Shown here in pieces: positions 47,126 through 57,451 of a DNA stretch of 64,000 nucleotides. Under the pieces are notes generated by a model. The model ran no database searches, was not told where the DNA came from, and saw nothing but the letters and a program-made list of their open reading frames with translations. Position 1 is the stretch's first letter. Every line of letters begins with the position of its first letter. The position numbers and the translations under genes are program-made. Origin of the DNA: Methanolinea mesophila (GTDB taxonomy: Archaea; Halobacteriota; Methanomicrobia; Methanomicrobiales; Methanospirillaceae); the NCBI RefSeq assembly GCF_017873855.1, contig NZ_JAGGKR010000001.1, forward strand, positions 1-64,000, given 5' to 3'.

Positions 47126-49186
47126 ATGGATGCGAGATTATTGACCGAACCGGAAGGAATGGAAGTATTACGGGCCCGGGGCATCCCGGTCCCCGATTCA
47201 ACGGTGGTGAATTCCCCCGGGGAGGCCGAAGAGGCTGCCCGACGGATCGGGTTCCCGCTCGTTATGAAGGTGGTGTCTGCGGGGGTGGTGCACAAGAGCG
47301 ACAGCGGAGGGGTGATACCCGGTATCAGCTCACCGGAAGGTGCAGGCGATGCCTACCGGCAGATCCTCGCCCGCGTAAGTGAGAAAGTCCCGGGAGCGGT
47401 CATCGAGGCGGTCATCGTTGAACGGCAGATGCCTCCCGGGCTCGAACTCATTATAGGCGGAAGGGAGGACCCGGCGTTCGGCAAAGTGATCACGTTCGGT
47501 ATCGGCGGGACCCTCGTGGAACTTATCCGCGATGTAGCCCTCCGGGTGCTCCCTCTCTCCCGGGAAGAGGCCTTGAGGATGGTCCGCTCCATCCGGGGCA
47601 GTACCCTCCTCATGGGATACAGGGGGAGCCCGCCCCTCGATGAAAATGCTCTCGTCGACCTGCTCGTGGCAGTCGGGCGGATGTTTCTGGAAAAGGAAGA
47701 CCTTGCAGAGTTCGACTTAAACCCGGTCATCCTTTATCCCGAGGGGCTCGTCGTGGTAGATGCCCGGCTCTACGAAAAAAACGTACCTTCCCCGGGCCAG
47801 GAACCACGAGAGCCCTTCGACGCCGGACTCTTCTCCCCCTCCTCCATTGCGGTGATAGGTGCATCTTCCGACCCGGGTAAGGTGGGGTACGCCGTGCTCC
47901 GGAACCTCCTCCCCTACCCGGGAACGCTCTACCCTGTCAACCCCCATCACAACGAACTGCTCGGAAGAAAGGCTTATCCCTCAGTCTCCGCCATACCGGG
48001 CCGGGTGGATGCCGCAGTCGTCGCTATCCCGGCGGCCGGCATCCCGCCGCTGATGGACGACCTGGGGAAGAAAGGGGTCAGGCTGGTGATCATCGTATCG
48101 TCCGGCTTCCGGGAGGTCGGGGGCGAAGGAGTGCTCCTCGAGGAGCGTGTCCTCGAAAAAGCCCGCCACTATGGGATGCGCGTCGTCGGTCCGAACTGCC
48201 TTGGCGTGATATTTCCCCATAAAAAGATCAACACCACGTTCGACCCCATCTCCCCGCACCCGGGTCATATCGGGTTCATATCCCAGAGCGGGGCGGTAAT
48301 CACCACGGTGGTCGACTGGAGCATCCCCGAAGGGATCGGGTTCTCCGCGGTGATCAGCGTAGGAAACCAGATCGACCTCGGGTTCGTGGACTTTATCGCT
48401 TTTACTGCACACGACCCCGAAACGAAGGCGGTGATTTTGTATATCGAAGAGTTACGGGGAGGAAGGGAGTTTCTCCGTCTTATGGAAGAGGTCACCCCCA
48501 CGCTCCCGGTCATCGCCCTGAAGTCCGGCTCTTCGGCGGTGGGGAAAAAAGCGGCGGCCTCGCATACAGGGTCCCTTGCAGGTTCGTTCGAGATCTACCA
48601 GGCGGCGTTCGCCCAGAGCGGCGTCATCCCGGTCTTTTCATTGAAAGAGGCGTTCGAAGTGGCGGAGCTCCTCGCATCCGAGGGATATCCCAAAGGGAAA
48701 CGCGCGGTGGTAATCACCGGGGCGGGAGGATTCGGGGTGCTCGCCGCCGACTACGCCGAGAAGTACGGAATCGCGATGGCTCCCCTGACCCCGGCCATGA
48801 TGGAGGAGTTCAACGCATTCCTCCCCCCCATGTGGAGCCACGCGAACCCGGTGGACCTTATCGGGGACGGCGGCGCGGAACGGTATGCAAAAGCCTTCGA
48901 CGTCCTGATGCGCCACCAGGACGAGTGGGACATCGCGTTCGTGATCGGGATTCCTTCCGCGGTCCTCGATACCGGGCACCTCGCGCAGGAGATCGTCCGG
49001 TTCTCCTCGCACACCCGGAAGATGGTAGTGGGGTGCCTCCTCGGGGGGGATAGCGTGAGGAGCGGGATCGGGGTGCTCCGGCACAAGAAGATACCCAACT
49101 TCTCGGACCTCGAACGGGCATTCCTGGCCGTCGGGAGGAGCCTGAACTCTATCCGTATCCACGAGCACGAAGAACGCGCCGGATAA
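47126..49186 (+). CDS. ADP-forming acyl-CoA synthetase, fused beta-alpha
   Basis: The 686-residue protein joins an ATP-grasp (beta) half (about 1-225; VMKVVSAGVVHKSDSGGV) to a succinyl-CoA-synthetase-like (alpha) half (about 230-686; SIAVIGASSDPGKVGYAVL, GPNCLGV, SQSGAV, and the phosphohistidine segment SHTGSLAGS with His480). These enzymes convert acyl-CoA plus ADP and phosphate to acid, CoA and ATP. The usual fused archaeal order is alpha first; here beta comes first, as in some bacterial-type ACD proteins. The acyl substrate (acetate or an aryl acid) cannot be told. Confidence 0.9.
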   Translation: MDARLLTEPEGMEVLRARGIPVPDSTVVNSPGEAEEAARRIGFPLVMKVVSAGVVHKSDSGGVIPGISSPEGAGDAYRQILARVSEKVPGAVIEAVIVERQMPPGLELIIGGREDPAFGKVITFGIGGTLVELIRDVALRVLPLSREEALRMVRSIRGSTLLMGYRGSPPLDENALVDLLVAVGRMFLEKEDLAEFDLNPVILYPEGLVVVDARLYEKNVPSPGQEPREPFDAGLFSPSSIAVIGASSDPGKVGYAVLRNLLPYPGTLYPVNPHHNELLGRKAYPSVSAIPGRVDAAVVAIPAAGIPPLMDDLGKKGVRLVIIVSSGFREVGGEGVLLEERVLEKARHYGMRVVGPNCLGVIFPHKKINTTFDPISPHPGHIGFISQSGAVITTVVDWSIPEGIGFSAVISVGNQIDLGFVDFIAFTAHDPETKAVILYIEELRGGREFLRLMEEVTPTLPVIALKSGSSAVGKKAAASHTGSLAGSFEIYQAAFAQSGVIPVFSLKEAFEVAELLASEGYPKGKRAVVITGAGGFGVLAADYAEKYGIAMAPLTPAMMEEFNAFLPPMWSHANPVDLIGDGGAERYAKAFDVLMRHQDEWDIAFVIGIPSAVLDTGHLAQEIVRFSSHTRKMVVGCLLGGDSVRSGIGVLRHKKIPNFSDLERAFLAVGRSLNSIRIHEHEERAG

Positions 49187-49212: not shown

Positions 49213-49989
49213 TCACCCTTTTGCCGGCTGTGCTCCCCACAGCGGCCGGGCGACGAAGAGAAGTTTACCGGGTTCTCCCCTGCCCTGGATGGTATCTATT
49301 CTCACTTCAAGCGGGACGATGTCTCCGGAACTCCCGACGAACTCGAGGACGATGCTCCGGCAAGTGCCGGAAGATCTTCTCGTGGTGCAGCAGGGATCTT
49401 CCAGGCAGGACTGCAGGCACGACTGACCGCTCGCAGTGAGCAGGTTCCGTAGGGAGGTCCCGGGACATTCCGTGTCATATCCAAGGACTTTCGAGACCGA
49501 AGGGGAGTTGTAGAGAACGCGGAGATCCTGGTCGGTGAGCCAGACCGCGTCGCTGATGTGCTCGAGTATGATCCTGTGATAAGTCCCGAAGGTGTTCGGC
49601 TGCATCCCGCCCCTCCTCGCCCGAACCTCGTCGTGGATCATCTGGCGGAGCGTGGCGAATACCATCTGGGGCGGGCCGGCCTTGGGAAGGTAATGGTTCG
49701 CGCCCGCGGAGAACGCTTTCACGGCGACCTCCTCGTTCCCCTTTCCGGTGAAGAGGATGAACGGGATGGTGTTTCCGCTCTTCCGGATGAGGGTCAGGAT
49801 CTCGATCCCGTCCATCACGGGCATCTGGTAATCGCAGACCATCGCGTCGAAATTTCCGGAGCGGAGCATTTCTAATGCTTCAGACGGTGAATTACAAAGC
49901 TCGACCGTCATGTCCCCCTCTTTTTCCAGGAGTATCCGGGTGACATTGAAAAGGGCCTGGTCGTCGTCGACTAAGAGTACCTTGATCAT
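49213..49989 (-). CDS. response regulator: receiver plus PAS
   Basis: The 258-residue protein starts at ATG 49989 behind GGAG. It has a CheY-like receiver domain with the acidic pair DDD (8-10), the phospho-acceptor D53 in MVCDYQMPVMDG, Thr in LFTGKG and the Lys in YLPKAG. A PAS domain follows (about 140-255) with several cysteines (CLQSCLEDPCCTTRRSSGTC) that could bind metal or sense redox. No DNA-binding domain is present. The kinase partner is not adjacent. The upstream TATA-like GATATATAT (minus strand, about 50155-50163) may be its promoter. Confidence 0.92.
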   Translation of the reverse strand: MIKVLLVDDDQALFNVTRILLEKEGDMTVELCNSPSEALEMLRSGNFDAMVCDYQMPVMDGIEILTLIRKSGNTIPFILFTGKGNEEVAVKAFSAGANHYLPKAGPPQMVFATLRQMIHDEVRARRGGMQPNTFGTYHRIILEHISDAVWLTDQDLRVLYNSPSVSKVLGYDTECPGTSLRNLLTASGQSCLQSCLEDPCCTTRRSSGTCRSIVLEFVGSSGDIVPLEVRIDTIQGRGEPGKLLFVARPLWGAQPAKG

Positions 49990-50367
49990 GGGGGCTCCGC
50001 ACTCTGCGCAATCAATGTGATGACCCGCAATGTGCCATGAATTTTTCGAAAAAAATCCTGTTTCAACGTGAGATATGTTCGGTAGTGCCGTTGAACCACG
50101 CGGATCGACGGATGAACTCCGCTTTTCTCCGGCGTTACCCTGCCGATAGGGCCAATATATATCGTTCCTCTGCGACTTTGTCTGTGGTGGAGAGAAGAGG
50201 TGCCCGGGGCGCCGGGAACGGGCGGCCCCGAACGGACACACCACCGGATCCCTGAACGTCGGGGAACTGTTCCAGATGCAGGAAAGATCACGAAGAAAAG
50301 AAATCCCAGGAATTCAACGCCTCTACAAAATCCAAGCACACACTCACATATTTCCACAATACAATAA

Positions 50368-50549: not shown

Positions 50550-51311
50550 TCAAACCGGGCGATGCCGGTAAATGATCAGCGAGGTATTGTCCCCCGCAGA
50601 CTTCAGGGACTCCCCGATGAGTTCCCTGACCAGTTCCGAGGGTTTCCCGGTCCGGGAGAGGGACTGCAACCGGCTCTCGGTCACGGTGTTGTGGAAGCCG
50701 TCGCTCGAGAGGAGGACGAGGGCCCCGGGGTAGAGCGGCATGCGGTAGGTGTCCACCCCAAAGGGGCCGCCCAAACACTGGGTGATGCAGGACCGGAGCG
50801 GGTGGGTGGACTCTTCTTCACCGGTGATCATGTTCCTCTCCCGGAGCGTCTGGATCACCGAGTGGTCCCGGGTGTGGAACATCTCGTGATCCTGGATGAC
50901 GTATGCCCTGGAGTCGCCCGTATTAGCGATTACCACCGAGTTTCCATGAATTACCGCTGCGACGAGTGTGGTACCCATCCCTTCCAGGCCTTCGCGGGCC
51001 CTCGCCTTCACGGCATGGTGGGCGAGCCGGAATGAGTTCTTCACGATCTCCTCGGTATTGAAGTCATGCCGCTCGGCGAGGCACCGGGTCATGGCCTGCT
51101 CGAGCACGGAGAGTGCGAGGCTGGCCGCAATATCGCCGCCACGTGCGCCACCCACCCCGTCGGCGACCGCGAGGAGGAGACAGGGGCCGATCCTGGAGAT
51201 AAGGATGCGGTCCTCGTTCCTTTCGCGGGGCCCCCTGCACGAGACCCCTGCGGCTTCGCCGTCCATGGTGACCAGGTCCTCGGGGTCCGGCCGCTCGTCA
51301 GGGTTAGTCAT
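50550..51311 (-). CDS. PP2C-family Ser/Thr protein phosphatase
   Basis: The 253-residue protein has the PP2C motifs in order: RNEDR, VADGVGG, MGTTLVAA, NTGDSRAYVI, LLSSDGFHN and the final GDNTSLII, which supply the metal-binding aspartates. It should remove phosphate from Ser/Thr residues in the cytoplasm. Its start overlaps the kinase stop by 8 bp, so it is translated with the kinase and probably reverses its action. Length and motifs match the bacterial Stp1/PrpC type rather than the eukaryotic one. Confidence 0.95.
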   Translation of the reverse strand: MTNPDERPDPEDLVTMDGEAAGVSCRGPRERNEDRILISRIGPCLLLAVADGVGGARGGDIAASLALSVLEQAMTRCLAERHDFNTEEIVKNSFRLAHHAVKARAREGLEGMGTTLVAAVIHGNSVVIANTGDSRAYVIQDHEMFHTRDHSVIQTLRERNMITGEEESTHPLRSCITQCLGGPFGVDTYRMPLYPGALVLLSSDGFHNTVTESRLQSLSRTGKPSELVRELIGESLKSAGDNTSLIIYRHRPV

Positions 51312-53874
51312 CGAAGATCTCGTACTCCCCCTGGCTCTCCAGGTACTGTTTCAGGTCGGCGATCAGTTCGTCGACCGTCTGGTAGCGTTCGCCGGGCTGT
51401 TTTTTGAGGCATTTCAGTATGATGGGATCGAGCCCCGCCGCGGTGGGGTTCAGCACTGACGGGGGCACGGGCTCCTCGGAGAGAATCCTCGCACTGACCT
51501 GACCGATCTCCTCTCCTTCGAAGAGGACTTTCCCGGTGACCAGCTCGTAAAATACCGCACCCAGCTGGTAGATATCGGTCCTCTGGTCCGTCGGCCCGAA
51601 CCCCGTCGATGCGACCTGCTCCGGGGCCGCATATGCAAGGGAAAAACCGGTGATGGTGGGCACCACGCAGGTCCCGAGCACCTTGCTCATTCCCCAGTCG
51701 GTGATCTTCGGGGTCCCGTCCTTCGCGATAAGGACGTTATGGGGTTTGATGTCCCGGTGGATGATCCCCCGCGAATGGGCGAATGAAAGCCCTTCGGCGA
51801 CCCCGAGGATGATCCTCGCCGCGTCCCTCACCGGGAGGGGTTTCTTCATCTCGGAGAGGGCGCTCTCCACGTATTCCATCTCTACGTAGGGGACGGGGAG
51901 GATGTTCACCTCGGAGACTTTCACGATATTGTCGTGGTGGAGCCCCTCCCACGCGACGATCTCCTTGGTGAAGCACTTGCCCGTGTTCTCGTCCTTGTTG
52001 ATGGGGATCTTCAGGGCGACGGTCTCGCCGGTCCGCCAGTTCCTGGCCCGGAAGACTCTCGCGATCCCACCCATCCCGATGAACGTGACGTGGTCGTAAC
52101 GTTCCCCCAGTTCGCTGGGAAAGAGTTCGCCCGTCCCCGGTTCACCATTCTGCGGGGAAGACGGAAACGTTGTTGCGCCCGGTACGGGGACCGCTCCCCC
52201 GGGGACCATGTTCCGGAGCTGCCACTGGGCCAGTGACGCGGAGACCACCGCGCCCGCGACACCGAATGCGACCGGGATGCTGTTGGTGAGTTCAGGGCTG
52301 GTGAACGCGATGAGCCCGGTGGCACAGGCCGCGATCCCGAGTGCGATGTGCCCCCTGACGATCCACCGGAGCGGCCTCGCCGCAAGGGTCGCCCCGATGA
52401 GGACCAGGGTGGAGATCACCAGGTAGAACGAGATCGCCGCCAGGAGATCGATCGCCGGGAACCGGAGCAGGGGATTCGTCCGGAGGTAGTAGTAGAGGAG
52501 GTATATGACCGCGGCCCCCGAGAGCAGGTACCCTGTGCTTCCCGCGATCTTCTCTGTCAGGGACAGGGGGAGGCGCGATCCCTTCCCGTTCAGCAGGTCG
52601 TAGGACAGGAACAGTCCGCAGAGCCCGACCAGGACGACTCCCGCAAGAATCGAGTCTTCCAGGGTGGGGAACATGGATGCGGCTCCGGGGGGTGTCGTGG
52701 GAGGGGTGACGGGGCCGGTCTCATTCCCCGGGGAATCCGTGGTTACGGAAGTGTCGGTCGGCCGGGTGGTAAACGGTGCACCGGTGGTGCGGGTCGCCGT
52801 CGGGGTACTGCTCGTGGTGGGGGTGATGGTGGGGGTGACGGTGGTAATGGTTGCCGGGGTGAAGATGGCGCTTACCGTGGTGGGCTGGCCCGCATTCACC
52901 GTCACCGTGGACTGCCAGTCGGAATAGCCGTCGAGCTCGAGGAGGACATCGTAGGAACCGGGGGCGATGTTCTGCATCGTGACCGGGGTTACGCCCCGGT
53001 AGATATCGTTCACGGTGGCCTTCGCCCCGGAAGGGTTCGAGGTGATCGTGAGCGAGCCTGCAAGGGACGAGGTCACGGTGGGGGTCGGGCTCGTGGTGGT
53101 GGCCGTGGCGGTCGTGGTGGTGGTGGTCGCAGTCGTCGTCACGGTGGTCGAAGGTTTCGTGGTAGCAGTAGTTGTCGTTGTAGCGGTCGGACTGGTTGTC
53201 GCCGTGGTAGTAGCGGTAGTGGTGACCGTTGTGGTCACCGTCGTCGTAGGCCTGGTCGTTGCGGTGGTAGTGGCTGTCGTGGTGGAAGAGGGAGTAGGAG
53301 TCGGGGTCGGGCTCGTCGTGGCGGTTGTGGTAATGGTCGTCGTTGGGACCGGTACCAGGTGTATTGTCGGCACTACGGTCGTAATCCCGTCACTTATCGT
53401 GACGTCCTGGCTATAAGGCTGGTATCCCTCGAGTTGGAGGGTGAGCGTATAATCCCCGGTCGGGTAGCTTCCCAGGGTGATCGGGGTCTGGGCGATGTAT
53501 TCGCCGTTGAGGTAGAACTGTGCGCCTGATGGGATTGAGTCCACCGAGATGCTCCCGGTCAGCCGGGAAAATGAGGCAGTTATGGTGTGATCCGAGTTCA
53601 GGCTGTTAAAGATATAAAATGGTTGACTTCCAATGGATTTCGAATCTACCAGGACTTCCTTTATCTTATAACCGTCGGACGCCTGGATATTATACACCAC
53701 CATATCGCCCCTGTTATACGTGAACTCCCCGTCCGGGTTTATCGTCCCTCCCACTCCTGCCGTGGAAGAGATGACAAAGGTGTCCCCCGCTGCCGCCGAT
53801 GCGAGGGGAACGCCTATGCTGACCAGGATAAGGCAGGCAAGAATAAGTGCGGAGGCAGTGCGTGTGCGGATCAT
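51304..53874 (-). CDS. transmembrane Ser/Thr protein kinase with PEGA domains
   Basis: The 856-residue protein starts at ATG 53874 before a signal peptide (ALILACLILVSIGVPLASA). Outside the membrane lie a repeat domain (31-106), a PEGA domain (107-178; SIPSGAQFYLNGEYIAQTP), a ~95-residue Thr-rich linker, a second PEGA domain (274-342) and another Thr/Pro linker. About five membrane helices (405-560) place the C-terminal kinase (about 590-845) inside. The kinase has a Gly loop GMGGIARVF, VALK, HRDIKPHN, APE, and DWG in place of DFG. FHA and PP2C genes flank it. Confidence 0.92.
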   Translation of the reverse strand: MIRTRTASALILACLILVSIGVPLASAAAGDTFVISSTAGVGGTINPDGEFTYNRGDMVVYNIQASDGYKIKEVLVDSKSIGSQPFYIFNSLNSDHTITASFSRLTGSISVDSIPSGAQFYLNGEYIAQTPITLGSYPTGDYTLTLQLEGYQPYSQDVTISDGITTVVPTIHLVPVPTTTITTTATTSPTPTPTPSSTTTATTTATTRPTTTVTTTVTTTATTTATTSPTATTTTTATTKPSTTVTTTATTTTTTATATTTSPTPTVTSSLAGSLTITSNPSGAKATVNDIYRGVTPVTMQNIAPGSYDVLLELDGYSDWQSTVTVNAGQPTTVSAIFTPATITTVTPTITPTTSSTPTATRTTGAPFTTRPTDTSVTTDSPGNETGPVTPPTTPPGAASMFPTLEDSILAGVVLVGLCGLFLSYDLLNGKGSRLPLSLTEKIAGSTGYLLSGAAVIYLLYYYLRTNPLLRFPAIDLLAAISFYLVISTLVLIGATLAARPLRWIVRGHIALGIAACATGLIAFTSPELTNSIPVAFGVAGAVVSASLAQWQLRNMVPGGAVPVPGATTFPSSPQNGEPGTGELFPSELGERYDHVTFIGMGGIARVFRARNWRTGETVALKIPINKDENTGKCFTKEIVAWEGLHHDNIVKVSEVNILPVPYVEMEYVESALSEMKKPLPVRDAARIILGVAEGLSFAHSRGIIHRDIKPHNVLIAKDGTPKITDWGMSKVLGTCVVPTITGFSLAYAAPEQVASTGFGPTDQRTDIYQLGAVFYELVTGKVLFEGEEIGQVSARILSEEPVPPSVLNPTAAGLDPIILKCLKKQPGERYQTVDELIADLKQYLESQGEYEIFDD
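53056..53340 (-). repeat. threonine-rich low-complexity coding repeat
   Basis: A run of ACN codons encodes a linker of ~95 residues made almost only of Thr with Ala, Pro, Ser and Val. On the plus strand it appears as GTGGT/GTCGT repeats. Such linkers are commonly O-glycosylated in archaeal surface proteins. The tract is likely to vary in length between strains. Confidence 0.75.
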
Positions 53875-53896
53875 GGGTGGGCGGGAAGTGGAAGGT

Positions 53897-54691
53897 TCAG
53901 GGAGTGTCATTGGGTATGATGATAAGGATCCTCGCTCCGGCGGCGCCTTTGGCCAGTTCAACGAGGTCTCCGTCGTGGAGCTGTTCGGGTTTTCGCGCGA
54001 TGAGCGGGGTGCTGTTAAGGAACGAGCCTCCCTTGCTCCCCCGGTCCTCGATGAACCACTTCGTCCCCTGCCGGGAGATCATCCCGTGGGGCTTGGTCAC
54101 CCGGGTGACCGAGGTATAGTCCGCGGAGAACAGGATATCGTTCTGGGGGTCGTACCGGTCCTCGTTCCCCGGGTCCACCCTGCCGACCCGGACCTCGGGC
54201 TTCTGCAGGAGGAAGACCTTACCGTCCTCAGGCCCCCCGAGAAGGATGGCCATGGGGGTGTCCCCGGTGATCTCGTCCTCCACTGCTTCCCTGACCTCGT
54301 CGAGCCGTTTCTTCAGTTCGCCGTCGGCAAGGTGGAGCTTGATGTTCGAGAAGATGCCCAGGTTCCGGATCAGCGCCTCCATGGCCCCCGGGACCAGGGA
54401 GTATTTCCATACCGGGTGGACGCCCTTCGAGGTCTGCTGGCCGAGCCCGACCTCCTTCTTGATAAGGCCGGTGCTGATCAGCTTGTCGAGATGTTTCTTG
54501 GTGTTCTCGTAGCTCGTGTTGATCTCGGATGCGATCGTCCGCACGTCCCGCGGTTTCTTCTCCAGTAATTTCAGGATCTTCAACCGCTGGCTGTTCGACA
54601 GGACCTCGAGATACTCGGAGAGCTCCATGTAATAGTCCGGAACTTCTTCAAGCACAATGGTCCTGGCTGTATCGTGCGGCGAATCGGTCAC
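53897..54691 (-). CDS. HTH-FHA regulator
   Basis: The 264-residue protein joins an N-terminal ArsR-like winged helix (about 24-100; LSNSQRLKILKLLEKKPRDV, RTIASEINTSYENTKKHLD) through a helical linker to a C-terminal FHA domain (about 175-260; VRVGRVDP, PHGMISRQGTKWFIEDRGS). FHA domains bind phosphothreonine and wHTH domains bind DNA, so the protein could link kinase activity to transcription. It is the first gene of the operon with the PEGA kinase and PP2C phosphatase. The start is GTG 54691 with AGGATGTG upstream. Confidence 0.9.
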   Translation of the reverse strand: MTDSPHDTARTIVLEEVPDYYMELSEYLEVLSNSQRLKILKLLEKKPRDVRTIASEINTSYENTKKHLDKLISTGLIKKEVGLGQQTSKGVHPVWKYSLVPGAMEALIRNLGIFSNIKLHLADGELKKRLDEVREAVEDEITGDTPMAILLGGPEDGKVFLLQKPEVRVGRVDPGNEDRYDPQNDILFSADYTSVTRVTKPHGMISRQGTKWFIEDRGSKGGSFLNSTPLIARKPEQLHDGDLVELAKGAAGARILIIIPNDTP

Positions 54692-54971
54692 CCAAGAATC
54701 ACATCCTGGGTTAATATTCGTAAGACACGGTCAAAAACATTCTCACCGAATTTCTCTCCTGTTTAAGAAGGTTGCATGCCGGGACAGTTATCTTATTAGC
54801 CCTGAACAAGCTGCCGCGGGGGCGTTAAGGCCCCTCGCAGAACAATCAGTGGAATCTGGTCCGCGGTGGAAAAACCTTCCATAATTCCCGGGTCAAGGGT
54901 AAAGTTTTAAGGGCCACCCGCCTACATCTGCACAGTACAGGTCGCGGGAGGCGCAAGGCCGGGGGGGCCGG

Positions 54972-56681
54972 ATGAAACGATCCGTAATTGCACAAATCGC
55001 TGTTCTTATTACAATATCTCTGGCCGCACTTTATGGGAGCGCAGTCGGGCTCCAGGGAGACTTTTACCCGTTTGCCCCCCTCCTGCTCTTCCCTCCGGTA
55101 ATCCTCGCGGCATACTGGTTCCCACGGCAGGGTATCTACTTCTCGCTCGCCCTTGGCCTGCTCCTCTTTCCGCTCTCGTATCTCGGGCTCCTGACGGGAA
55201 TGCCGCTTCCCGGTTTCGCGCTCACCACCGCTAGCTTCTACGTGCTGGTTGCGGCGGCGGTGACGGTCTCATCGCTCTCATCCAGGCTGAAGAGCGAGGA
55301 AGGCAGATACCAGGGTATTTTCGACCGGTGCGTTGCCGGGATGGTCATGGCCCGGAAGAAGGACGGTGAAGTACTCGGGACCGATATCAATATCCACGGG
55401 GCTGCGATGCTGGACTACGGGGAGGGAGATTTCAGAGGATCATCACTCGCCTCGATCTTTGCCCGTTACCAGGACTACAAGGTGATGATGGAGACCCTGG
55501 ACCAGGAGGGGATGATCCTGAACAGGGAGGTGACCCTGCGGGCACATAACGGAGACCAGAAACCCTCGCTCCTCTCGGCGACCCTCGTCCCCGACGACCT
55601 CATCCTGGTCACCTTTATCGACATCGGCCAGAGAATGGCTGCGGAAAAGGCAATCCATGAGAGCGAGAAGAAATACCGGACCCTGTTCGAAAATTCCAGC
55701 GTGGGGATCTTCCTCATGAACGATCGGTTCATCGACTGCAACGAACAGCTCGCGACCCTGCTCGGCTGTCCCAGGGACCGGATTATCGGATATGACCCCT
55801 CCGGGTTTTTCCCCCCGCTCCAGCCTGACGGCACCCCCTCGGAATCGTCGTTCAGGGATCACACGGCTTCTGCAACCCTCGGTCACCCTGAGCACTTCTC
55901 CTGGAGGTACCAGCGGGAGGATAAAAGCCCTCTCGATACGGAGATGACGCTGAAAGCCCTCGAGACCCCCGATGGAAAGGTGCTTTTTGCGACCCTGCAC
56001 GACGTGACCGAGCGGTTACGGGCCGAAGAGGCCCTGGTAAAAGCTAACGCGAAGTTGAACCTTCTTTCAAGTGTTACCCGCCACGATGTGTTCAACCAGC
56101 TGACCATCATGACCGGGTACCTGGAACTTGCAAGACTGAAGGCGAGGAGCCCGGATGTCAAAGACTACCTTTCGAAGGTGGAGACGGCCGCCGAGACCAT
56201 CTACCGGCAGATATCCTTTACCCGCATCTACCAGGATATCGGAACATCGTCCCCCGCCTGGCAGGATCTCCGGAAGACATTCGACAAGTCCCTCGAAGGA
56301 CTCGATACCGGGAAGATCTCGTTCGCGCTCCCCCCTGAAGGGCTCTGGTTGTTTGCCGACCCCCTCCTGGAGAAGGTCTTCTTCAACCTGGTCGACAATT
56401 CGCTCCGTCATGGAGGGACGGTATCCAGGATCTCGCTCGAGGCAGACCCTTCGGCAGGGAGCCTGGTCCTGGTCTACCGGGACGACGGCGAGGGGATCCC
56501 ACCCGGGGAGAGGGAGGAGATATTCAAGAGGGGGTACGGAAAAAACACCGGTTACGGGCTGTTCCTGATCAGGGAGATCCTTTCTATCACCGGCCTTTCA
56601 ATAAAAGAGACAGGAACTCCCGGCGAGGGAGCACGGTTCGAGATCCATGTCCCCGAAGGCAGTTACCGGCTTGCACCGTAG
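54972..56681 (+). CDS. membrane PAS sensor histidine kinase
   Basis: The 569-residue protein has about four N-terminal membrane helices (residues 5-110), then two PAS domains (about 115-225 and 235-345), the H-box VTRHDVFNQ, and an HATPase_c domain with NLVDNSLRHGG, YRDDGEGIPPG and GYGLFLIREI. Its catalytic half closely resembles the other two kinases in the window. The signal is unknown. It converges with a stand-alone receiver protein gene 105 bp downstream, which is a plausible phosphorylation partner. TATA-like AAAGTTTTAAGG lies at about 54900-54911. Confidence 0.92.
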   Translation: MKRSVIAQIAVLITISLAALYGSAVGLQGDFYPFAPLLLFPPVILAAYWFPRQGIYFSLALGLLLFPLSYLGLLTGMPLPGFALTTASFYVLVAAAVTVSSLSSRLKSEEGRYQGIFDRCVAGMVMARKKDGEVLGTDINIHGAAMLDYGEGDFRGSSLASIFARYQDYKVMMETLDQEGMILNREVTLRAHNGDQKPSLLSATLVPDDLILVTFIDIGQRMAAEKAIHESEKKYRTLFENSSVGIFLMNDRFIDCNEQLATLLGCPRDRIIGYDPSGFFPPLQPDGTPSESSFRDHTASATLGHPEHFSWRYQREDKSPLDTEMTLKALETPDGKVLFATLHDVTERLRAEEALVKANAKLNLLSSVTRHDVFNQLTIMTGYLELARLKARSPDVKDYLSKVETAAETIYRQISFTRIYQDIGTSSPAWQDLRKTFDKSLEGLDTGKISFALPPEGLWLFADPLLEKVFFNLVDNSLRHGGTVSRISLEADPSAGSLVLVYRDDGEGIPPGEREEIFKRGYGKNTGYGLFLIREILSITGLSIKETGTPGEGARFEIHVPEGSYRLAP

Positions 56682-56785: not shown

Positions 56786-57451
56786 TCAACAGGGGTCGAT
56801 CCGAGCCTTTATGGCACCGAGACGGTCCTTCCGGTCGGAGATTTTCTGCAGGATTGCGGAAAAGATCTCCTTTCTCTCGGGCTGCATGAGGAGGTCTCTC
56901 CCCGATGACTCGTAGGAACTCCGGATCAGGGGAATGATCTCCTCCATGGCGCAGACCCTCCGGGCCAGGAACCGGTACTCCCTGATGGTCTCCGGGTCCA
57001 TTCCCATCTTCCCGGCTTCCCTCGCGCAGTCATCGATCTTCCCGATCCCGGCGAAAAAGTGCTCGAGGAGGAGATTGAGATCGTGCGGGCTGACCGGTTT
57101 CACGATATACCCGTCGATCAGGTCACCGTACTGCACCAGCTCCTCGAGCACGAACTGCTTCCCCGTCACCATGATGACCGGGACATCCTCATATCCAGGG
57201 TCCTCGCGTATCCGGCGGAGGGTCTCCCATCCGTCCATCGGCGCCATCATGATATCGAGGAGTATTAAGTCGGGGAGGGACTTCCGTAGCTCGTCGAGGC
57301 ATTCCCTGCCGCTCTGGGCACCGGTAACCGTATACCCCTTCATCCCGAGGATGGTGAGATATAACTCGACCAGGTCGCTATTGTCATCCACTACAAGGAT
57401 TTTATGAGAGTGTCCTGCCGCTATCGTTCCACCCCCCTGAAAGCGGAACAT
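56786..57451 (-). CDS. single-receiver response regulator with helical tail
   Basis: The 221-residue protein has a receiver domain (about 15-135) with DDN, the phospho-acceptor Asp in LILLDIMMAPMDG, the Thr in MVTGKQF and the Lys in YIVKPVSP. A ~85-residue helical tail follows (DDCAREAGKMGMDPETIREY). No output domain is recognised, so it may work through protein contacts. There is no ribosome-binding site at ATG 57451, and the AAATTTC box ~28 bp upstream suggests a leaderless transcript. It converges with the membrane PAS kinase gene. Confidence 0.88.
   Translation of the reverse strand: MFRFQGGGTIAAGHSHKILVVDDNSDLVELYLTILGMKGYTVTGAQSGRECLDELRKSLPDLILLDIMMAPMDGWETLRRIREDPGYEDVPVIMVTGKQFVLEELVQYGDLIDGYIVKPVSPHDLNLLLEHFFAGIGKIDDCAREAGKMGMDPETIREYRFLARRVCAMEEIIPLIRSSYESSGRDLLMQPERKEIFSAILQKISDRKDRLGAIKARIDPC

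Follow-up and report, generated by a model that had tools for sequence, protein, structure and literature searches.

Three adjacent genes in a methanogen raise the question of whether they encode a route by which a membrane Ser/Thr kinase passes an outside signal to a phosphothreonine-reading DNA-binding protein and, if so, which threonine is read. The genes, here termed R, K, and P, lie consecutively on the minus strand at 50550-54691 of the window (a 64-kb stretch of Methanolinea mesophila DNA, analyzed as a whole; Table 1). The original prediction described them as neighboring genes for an HTH-FHA protein, a PEGA transmembrane kinase, and a PP2C phosphatase, the last two overlapping by 8 bp; Pfam places all three where predicted, and the overlap is exact (51304-51311). 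The longest open reading frame for K starts at TTG 53961, within R, and a start at ATG 53910 would give a 14-bp overlap with R. With ATG 53874 as the start, K is separated from R by 22 bp, a spacing shared by many relatives, and a signal-peptide-like stretch follows directly; ATG 53874 is for these reasons the likeliest true start of K. Two-component genes flank the trio on both sides. Farther out, a plus-strand gene at 47126-49186 encodes a protein whose ATP-grasp, CoA-binding, and succinyl-CoA-ligase-like domains are like those of ADP-forming acyl-CoA synthetases, and several relatives have a similar gene near R-K.

Table 1. Coordinates of the R-K-P genes, their candidate regulatory features, and flanking two-component genes in the window.
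Feature	Position	Strand	Basis or remark
R: wHTH-FHA regulator, 264 aa, GTG start	53897..54691	-	Pfam HTH_5 + FHA
K: Hanks-type Ser/Thr kinase; signal peptide, two PEGA, Thr-rich linkers, five TM helices, cytoplasmic kinase domain	51304..53874	-	
P: PP2C-type Ser/Thr phosphatase	50550..51311	-	Pfam PP2C_2
Thr11 codon of R, proposed phosphoacceptor and FHA ligand	54659..54661	-	invariant Thr, predicted-disordered N-tail
K juxtamembrane linker, residues 571-591, candidate FHA docking site	52138..52200	-	pLDDT <50
Block GAGAATGTTTTTG 5' of R, candidate R-K operator	54732..54744	-	conserved in close relatives
Receiver-PAS protein	49213-50244	-	flanks R-K-P
PAS histidine kinase, divergent from R	54972-56681	+	flanks R-K-P
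Receiver protein, weak MetOD2 match	56786-57451	-	flanks R-K-P

Strong homologues of R occur in 45 of 60 relatives. K lies next to R, on the same strand, for 62 of 67 R genes in a first sample and for 71 of 80 in a second sample, which overlaps the first and consists of named genomes (80 loci from Methanolinea, Methanoregula, Methanoculleus, Methanofollis, Methanomicrobium, and others). Four of the five remaining R genes in the first sample, and seven of the nine in the second, are near contig ends; the others have a PP2C gene next to R instead (L072), K split into two open reading frames (L133), or K on the opposite strand (L178), such that a kinase or phosphatase still adjoins R in each of the three exceptions. 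At L072 (genome G006) a typical R is followed by the PP2C gene, and about 3 kb farther on a divergent R is followed by K. The expectation that the genes would be neighbors in related genomes thus holds for R and K throughout Methanomicrobiales. We conclude that R-K adjacency is far above chance, and we regard the reality of the gene pairing as near certain.

The two genes also occur together. Among 232 genomes of the class, 149 have both R and K, 4 have only R, 12 have only K, and 67 have neither (E <1e-30 for R and <1e-60 for K; table counts transcribed by hand), the Fisher value for this co-occurrence being inflated by shared ancestry. A search of 394 genomes sampled from the phylum gave 64 with R at 1e-12; these all belong to Methanomicrobiales, and none outside the order is positive at that threshold. 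One genome (G041, family f6) encodes four K-like kinases (best E 1.7e-110), and a search of it for R and for an FHA domain found neither. In another family of the phylum, a 589-aa frame (G241:C36:15349-16365) has three FHA matches and falls outside the R family. The genome from which the window derives encodes one FHA domain, held by R, and a single Hanks kinase above the Pfam cut-off, K, and FHA counts track R counts across Methanomicrobiales; the pairing of R with K is therefore close to forced.

Seventeen sampled genomes contain two to four R-K pairs. When each pair is compared with the paralogues of another genome, the nearest R is the partner of the nearest K in 443 of 592 comparisons, as compared to 284 +/- 33 agreements when partners are shuffled within genomes (0 of 500 trials reaching 443). 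Kinase-domain and R distances show an overall correlation of 0.78, to which species history contributes. We conclude that R and K paralogues are co-inherited as pairs. These results bear on the possibility that K targets many cellular proteins and that R is merely its operon companion. Bacterial Hanks kinases are often promiscuous, and a few genomes have K without R; order-wide pairing, matched paralogues, and an FHA reader restricted to R would, however, be unexpected for a chance neighbor, and we consider this possibility highly improbable.

The phosphatase gene behaves differently from the R-K pair. P matches Pfam PP2C_2 above cut-off (2.9e-16), and its motifs, read directly (RxxNED, DGVGG, GDSR, SDG, and GDN), include the metal-binding Asp motifs of PP2C enzymes (DGxGG, SDG, and DN); its NCBIfam Stp1_PP2C_phos score, 159 bits, is under the cut-off of 230. 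Of some 45 genomes that carry R, about 10 have P beside R or K, and where linked the PP2C gene is found after K, or before or after R. PP2C_2 genes are present in 52 of 61 searched genomes, some of which do not have R, and the genome containing the window has two. The predicted three-gene operon, which we judge by gene order and spacing, accordingly stands as regards R and K but not as regards P as a fixed member, and a conserved R-K-P unit is ruled out by the minority linkage of P and its occurrence in more than one gene order. We conclude that R-K is the evolutionarily conserved unit and, because PP2C genes also occur in genomes without R and are linked to the pair in about 10 genomes only, that R-K-P is a lineage-specific extension.

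The presence of a DNA-binding domain and an FHA domain in one protein, as originally predicted, was confirmed by profile matches above the Pfam gathering cut-offs: HTH_5 at residues 34-79 of R (1.4e-6) and FHA at residues 168-246 (3e-9). An AlphaFold model of R (mean pLDDT 84) comprises a winged helix-turn-helix (wHTH) at residues ~18-99, a helical linker at residues 103-142, and an FHA domain at residues 147-258, and its fold matches in the PDB are the FHA domains of GarA, OdhI, EmbR, and DgcB and, in addition, archaeal Phr. The wHTH is both complete and highly conserved, as seen in its YENTKKH helix. Assignment of R as an ArsR/SmtB metalloregulator was rejected (HTH_metalloreg 34 bits, cut-off 55; no Cys in R). 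In the FHA domain, Arg171, Arg197, Ser/Thr199, His202, Ser219, and Asn226 are conserved, and position 220 is mostly Thr, with Lys in the R of the window. Of these residues, Arg171, Arg197, and Ser/Thr199 are ones that we take to be the equivalents of the phosphothreonine contacts of Rad53. The position corresponding to Rad53 Asn107 is Gly in most members of the family, a substitution that might lower the affinity of R for phosphothreonine.

K has a Hanks kinase domain (Pfam Pkinase 2.9e-39). The original prediction gave it an extracellular PEGA sensor and five membrane helices, and these are recovered as two PEGA stretches (whole-protein E 1.9e-34) and as AlphaFold helices at residues 417-441, 451-477, 485-510, 515-535, and 544-568 (numbered from ATG 53910). 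PEGA is thus the sensor of this K, but it does not define the family: the ectodomains of 56 paired kinases match PEGA in 11 cases, NosD in 13, and Beta_helix in 9, the others having no Pfam match. The ectodomain is joined by long Thr-rich linkers, predicted to be disordered, at residues 192-274 and 345-414 (window 52669-53337); the strand opposite this segment has long open frames rich in Val, apparently an effect of composition. A DWG motif in place of DFG had been named as a possible cause of kinase inactivity. DWG is present in 62 of 62 kinases, as are Lys634, Glu650, Asp720, Asn725, and Asp738; because the motif is invariant and every catalytic residue is kept, it is a family-wide trait and no sign of a defect, and inactivity of K through DWG is ruled out. 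Assignment of the genes to an anti-phage system was also rejected, the PADLOC matches on K being to a generic kinase domain and those on R and P being weak.

If K phosphorylates a threonine that R reads, the sequences point to Thr11 of R itself as that threonine and, more weakly, to a threonine in the juxtamembrane linker of K. Thr11 is present at the same position in 107 of 107 distinct R tails and is never replaced by Ser, the remainder of the tail being variable; Thr to the exclusion of Ser is expected, since the specificity of FHA domains predicts Thr. One divergent R, the second at L072, has no Thr11. The residues that follow are predominantly hydrophobic (96% at +1, 82% at +2, and 79% at +3), and position -2 is mostly Ser or Asp, Ser being commonest. 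Residues 1-17 of R are predicted to be unstructured (pLDDT <50), and Thr11 lies at a constant distance of 13 residues ahead of the first helix region. A precedent exists in the FHA domains of GarA, OdhI, and DgcB, each of which binds a Thr of its own N-terminal tail with hydrophobic residues at +2/+3 (PMC6733907).

The second candidate lies in residues 571-591 of K, a segment predicted to be unstructured (pLDDT <50; numbered from ATG 53910). A Thr-hydrophobic motif resembling the R tail is found in 35 of 62 juxtamembrane linkers, as compared to 10.2 +/- 2.8 in shuffled sequences, and in 14 of 27 non-redundant linkers, as compared to 4.2 (0 of 1000 shuffles reaching 14); the Ser version is found in 17, vs. 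11.5 in shuffles. Among 23 control kinases from another order, the linkers show at most a weak signal (3 below 0.05, a small sample), and the linker of the window's own K (ATTF) is a poor match to the motif. The pattern suggests that the linker may serve as an FHA docking site for R; given the weak control signal and the small sample, we treat it as secondary evidence.

The same pattern accommodates a different arrangement, in which R docks through its FHA domain on phosphorylated K and is sequestered at the membrane, with Thr11 remaining unphosphorylated and serving, for example, as a structural or dimer contact. In line with this arrangement are the Thr-hydrophobic motifs of the K linkers, the precedent of PknB, a juxtamembrane phosphothreonine of which binds FhaA (cited in PMC12077195), and the fixed 13-residue spacing between Thr11 and the helix, as for a structural element. 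Set against it, Thr11 is in a segment predicted to be disordered, its sequence pattern is that of known self-bound FHA ligands, and its invariance without Ser is as predicted from FHA specificity. We consider sequestration with unphosphorylated Thr11 rather unlikely, and phosphorylation of R by K likely; a switch in which an FHA domain of R captures phospho-Thr11 is plausible.

For the output of the pair we examined the DNA upstream of R. In close relatives, GAGAATRTTTTTG occurs, mostly with 0-1 mismatch, at about -50 to -54 from the R start. The 13-bp block occurs exactly once in the 2.66-Mb genome, in front of R; five of six one-mismatch sites of GAGAATRTTTTTG are within open reading frames, and none of the six has a gene start just 3', so that no regulon was identified by this search. 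In Methanoregula, 29 upstream sequences contain 25 GGTT-N(6-12)-AACC dyads, vs. 0.7 expected. The upstream blocks are candidate operators that differ between clades. No conserved neighbor other than K hints at a regulon, the flanking clusters being small and lineage-bound. It could be proposed that R serves as an adaptor under phosphorylation control, or that it governs a single local operon with no wide regulon, and that the pair mainly autoregulates, as the single exact block, the absence of a downstream gene start at the one-mismatch sites checked, and the lack of conservation of flanking genes beyond K would lead one to expect. However, the wHTH, with its YENTKKH helix, is intact and strongly conserved, degenerate distant sites would be compatible with a local block, and a purely self-regulating sensor would be of little use; we judge a mainly autoregulatory pair to be distinctly unlikely.

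A kinase-to-FHA-regulator route is the best reading of the gene set, and our best model, which we hold to be reasonably probable, is a cognate R-K phosphothreonine pair having Thr11 as the switch. In this model, an outside cue sensed by the interchangeable ectodomain of K would make the cytoplasmic Hanks kinase more or less active; K would autophosphorylate, probably also in its disordered juxtamembrane linker; the phosphorylated linker would recruit R through the FHA domain of R; and K would then phosphorylate Thr11 in the disordered tail of the recruited R. An FHA domain, either in that R molecule or in the other subunit of its dimer, would then bind phospho-Thr11, releasing R from K and re-setting the wHTH dimer, and the re-set dimer would show changed binding to the operator in front of the R-K genes and, presumably, elsewhere at further promoters. 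The mark would be removed by PP2C enzymes, one of which is here encoded right behind K. The sequences themselves provide the pairing, the co-inheritance, the catalytic residues and most phosphothreonine-binding residues, Thr11 in a tail predicted to be disordered, and the upstream blocks; each event of the model (phosphorylation, FHA binding, and DNA binding) is inferred, as are the cue, the regulon, and whether regulation is positive or negative. Counting against the model are the Gly at the Rad53-Asn107 position, the poor linker match in the window, the Thr11-less R at L072 and the PP2C gene directly after the typical R there, the K-like kinases without R, and the differences in upstream blocks between clades.

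The closest known system is EmbR-PknH of Mycobacterium tuberculosis. EmbR, a transcription factor that ends in an FHA domain, shares an operon with the membrane Ser/Thr kinase PknH, the EmbR gene lying upstream; its phosphorylation by PknH in vitro requires the FHA domain, and phosphorylation in vivo was not seen under normal growth (PMC9239209). R-K has the same combination of DNA-binding and FHA domains in one protein and the same gene order, regulator first and membrane kinase second, and EmbR structures match the R model at the FHA domain. However, EmbR has an OmpR-like DNA-binding domain and a BTAD (SARP family), whereas R combines an ArsR-like wHTH with an N-terminal Thr that is invariant, and R-K, unlike EmbR-PknH, is order-wide, often multi-copy, and subject to sensor swapping. 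Membership of R in the EmbR (SARP) family was rejected, Pfam giving an ArsR-type wHTH and no BTAD.

GarA, OdhI, and DgcB, whose FHA domains are among the best fold matches to that of R, share with R the disordered N-terminal tail, the conserved Thr, and the hydrophobic +2/+3 residues. They differ in favoring Glu at -2, where R mostly has Ser or Asp; in the contact residue Asn97 of DgcB, where R has Gly; and in output, which is enzyme inhibition or a GGDEF cyclase, whereas the R tail precedes a DNA-binding domain. In PknB-FhaA and StkP, juxtamembrane-linker phosphothreonines have been proposed or shown to recruit FHA proteins (PMC12077195), but those partners act in cell division, whereas R is DNA-binding. 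Among archaea, ArnA/ArnB of Sulfolobales offer an example of an FHA protein that takes part in controlling gene expression through phosphorylation (PMC10470591, PMC4858521). The partner of ArnA is the vWA protein ArnB, whereas that of R would be the product of a dedicated neighboring kinase gene; a scan of the flanking genes found no vWA domain, and ArnA is matched by the R profile weakly and at the FHA domain only (5a8i, 4e-4). R-K resembles two-component systems in that a modular membrane sensor kinase shares an operon with the DNA-binding protein dedicated to it, and in that the paralogues are matched, but has no His/Asp chemistry, HisKA, or receiver domain, and instead would use phosphothreonine read by FHA.

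No earlier description of an archaeal R-K pair was found in the literature searched, which mostly excluded subscription papers; newly noted here are the invariant Thr11 of the R tail, the Thr-hydrophobic K linkers, and the clade-specific upstream blocks. Whether the pairs constitute a Methanomicrobiales-specific phosphothreonine two-component class, in which a Hanks kinase with an exchangeable ectodomain and a wHTH-FHA response regulator, switched by phospho-Thr11 and its own FHA domain, are co-inherited as duplicated pairs, is a proposition for which we see the chances as even. The targets and logic of methanogen Ser/Thr kinases are largely unknown, and a near-single kinase beside the single FHA reader of a genome offers a clean case with one testable residue. 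If the proposition is true, R would join a small number of known archaeal DNA-binding regulators that contain an FHA domain, paralogous R-K pairs could be used to study partner specificity, and R-K would be a Thr/FHA analogue of two-component signaling in archaea.
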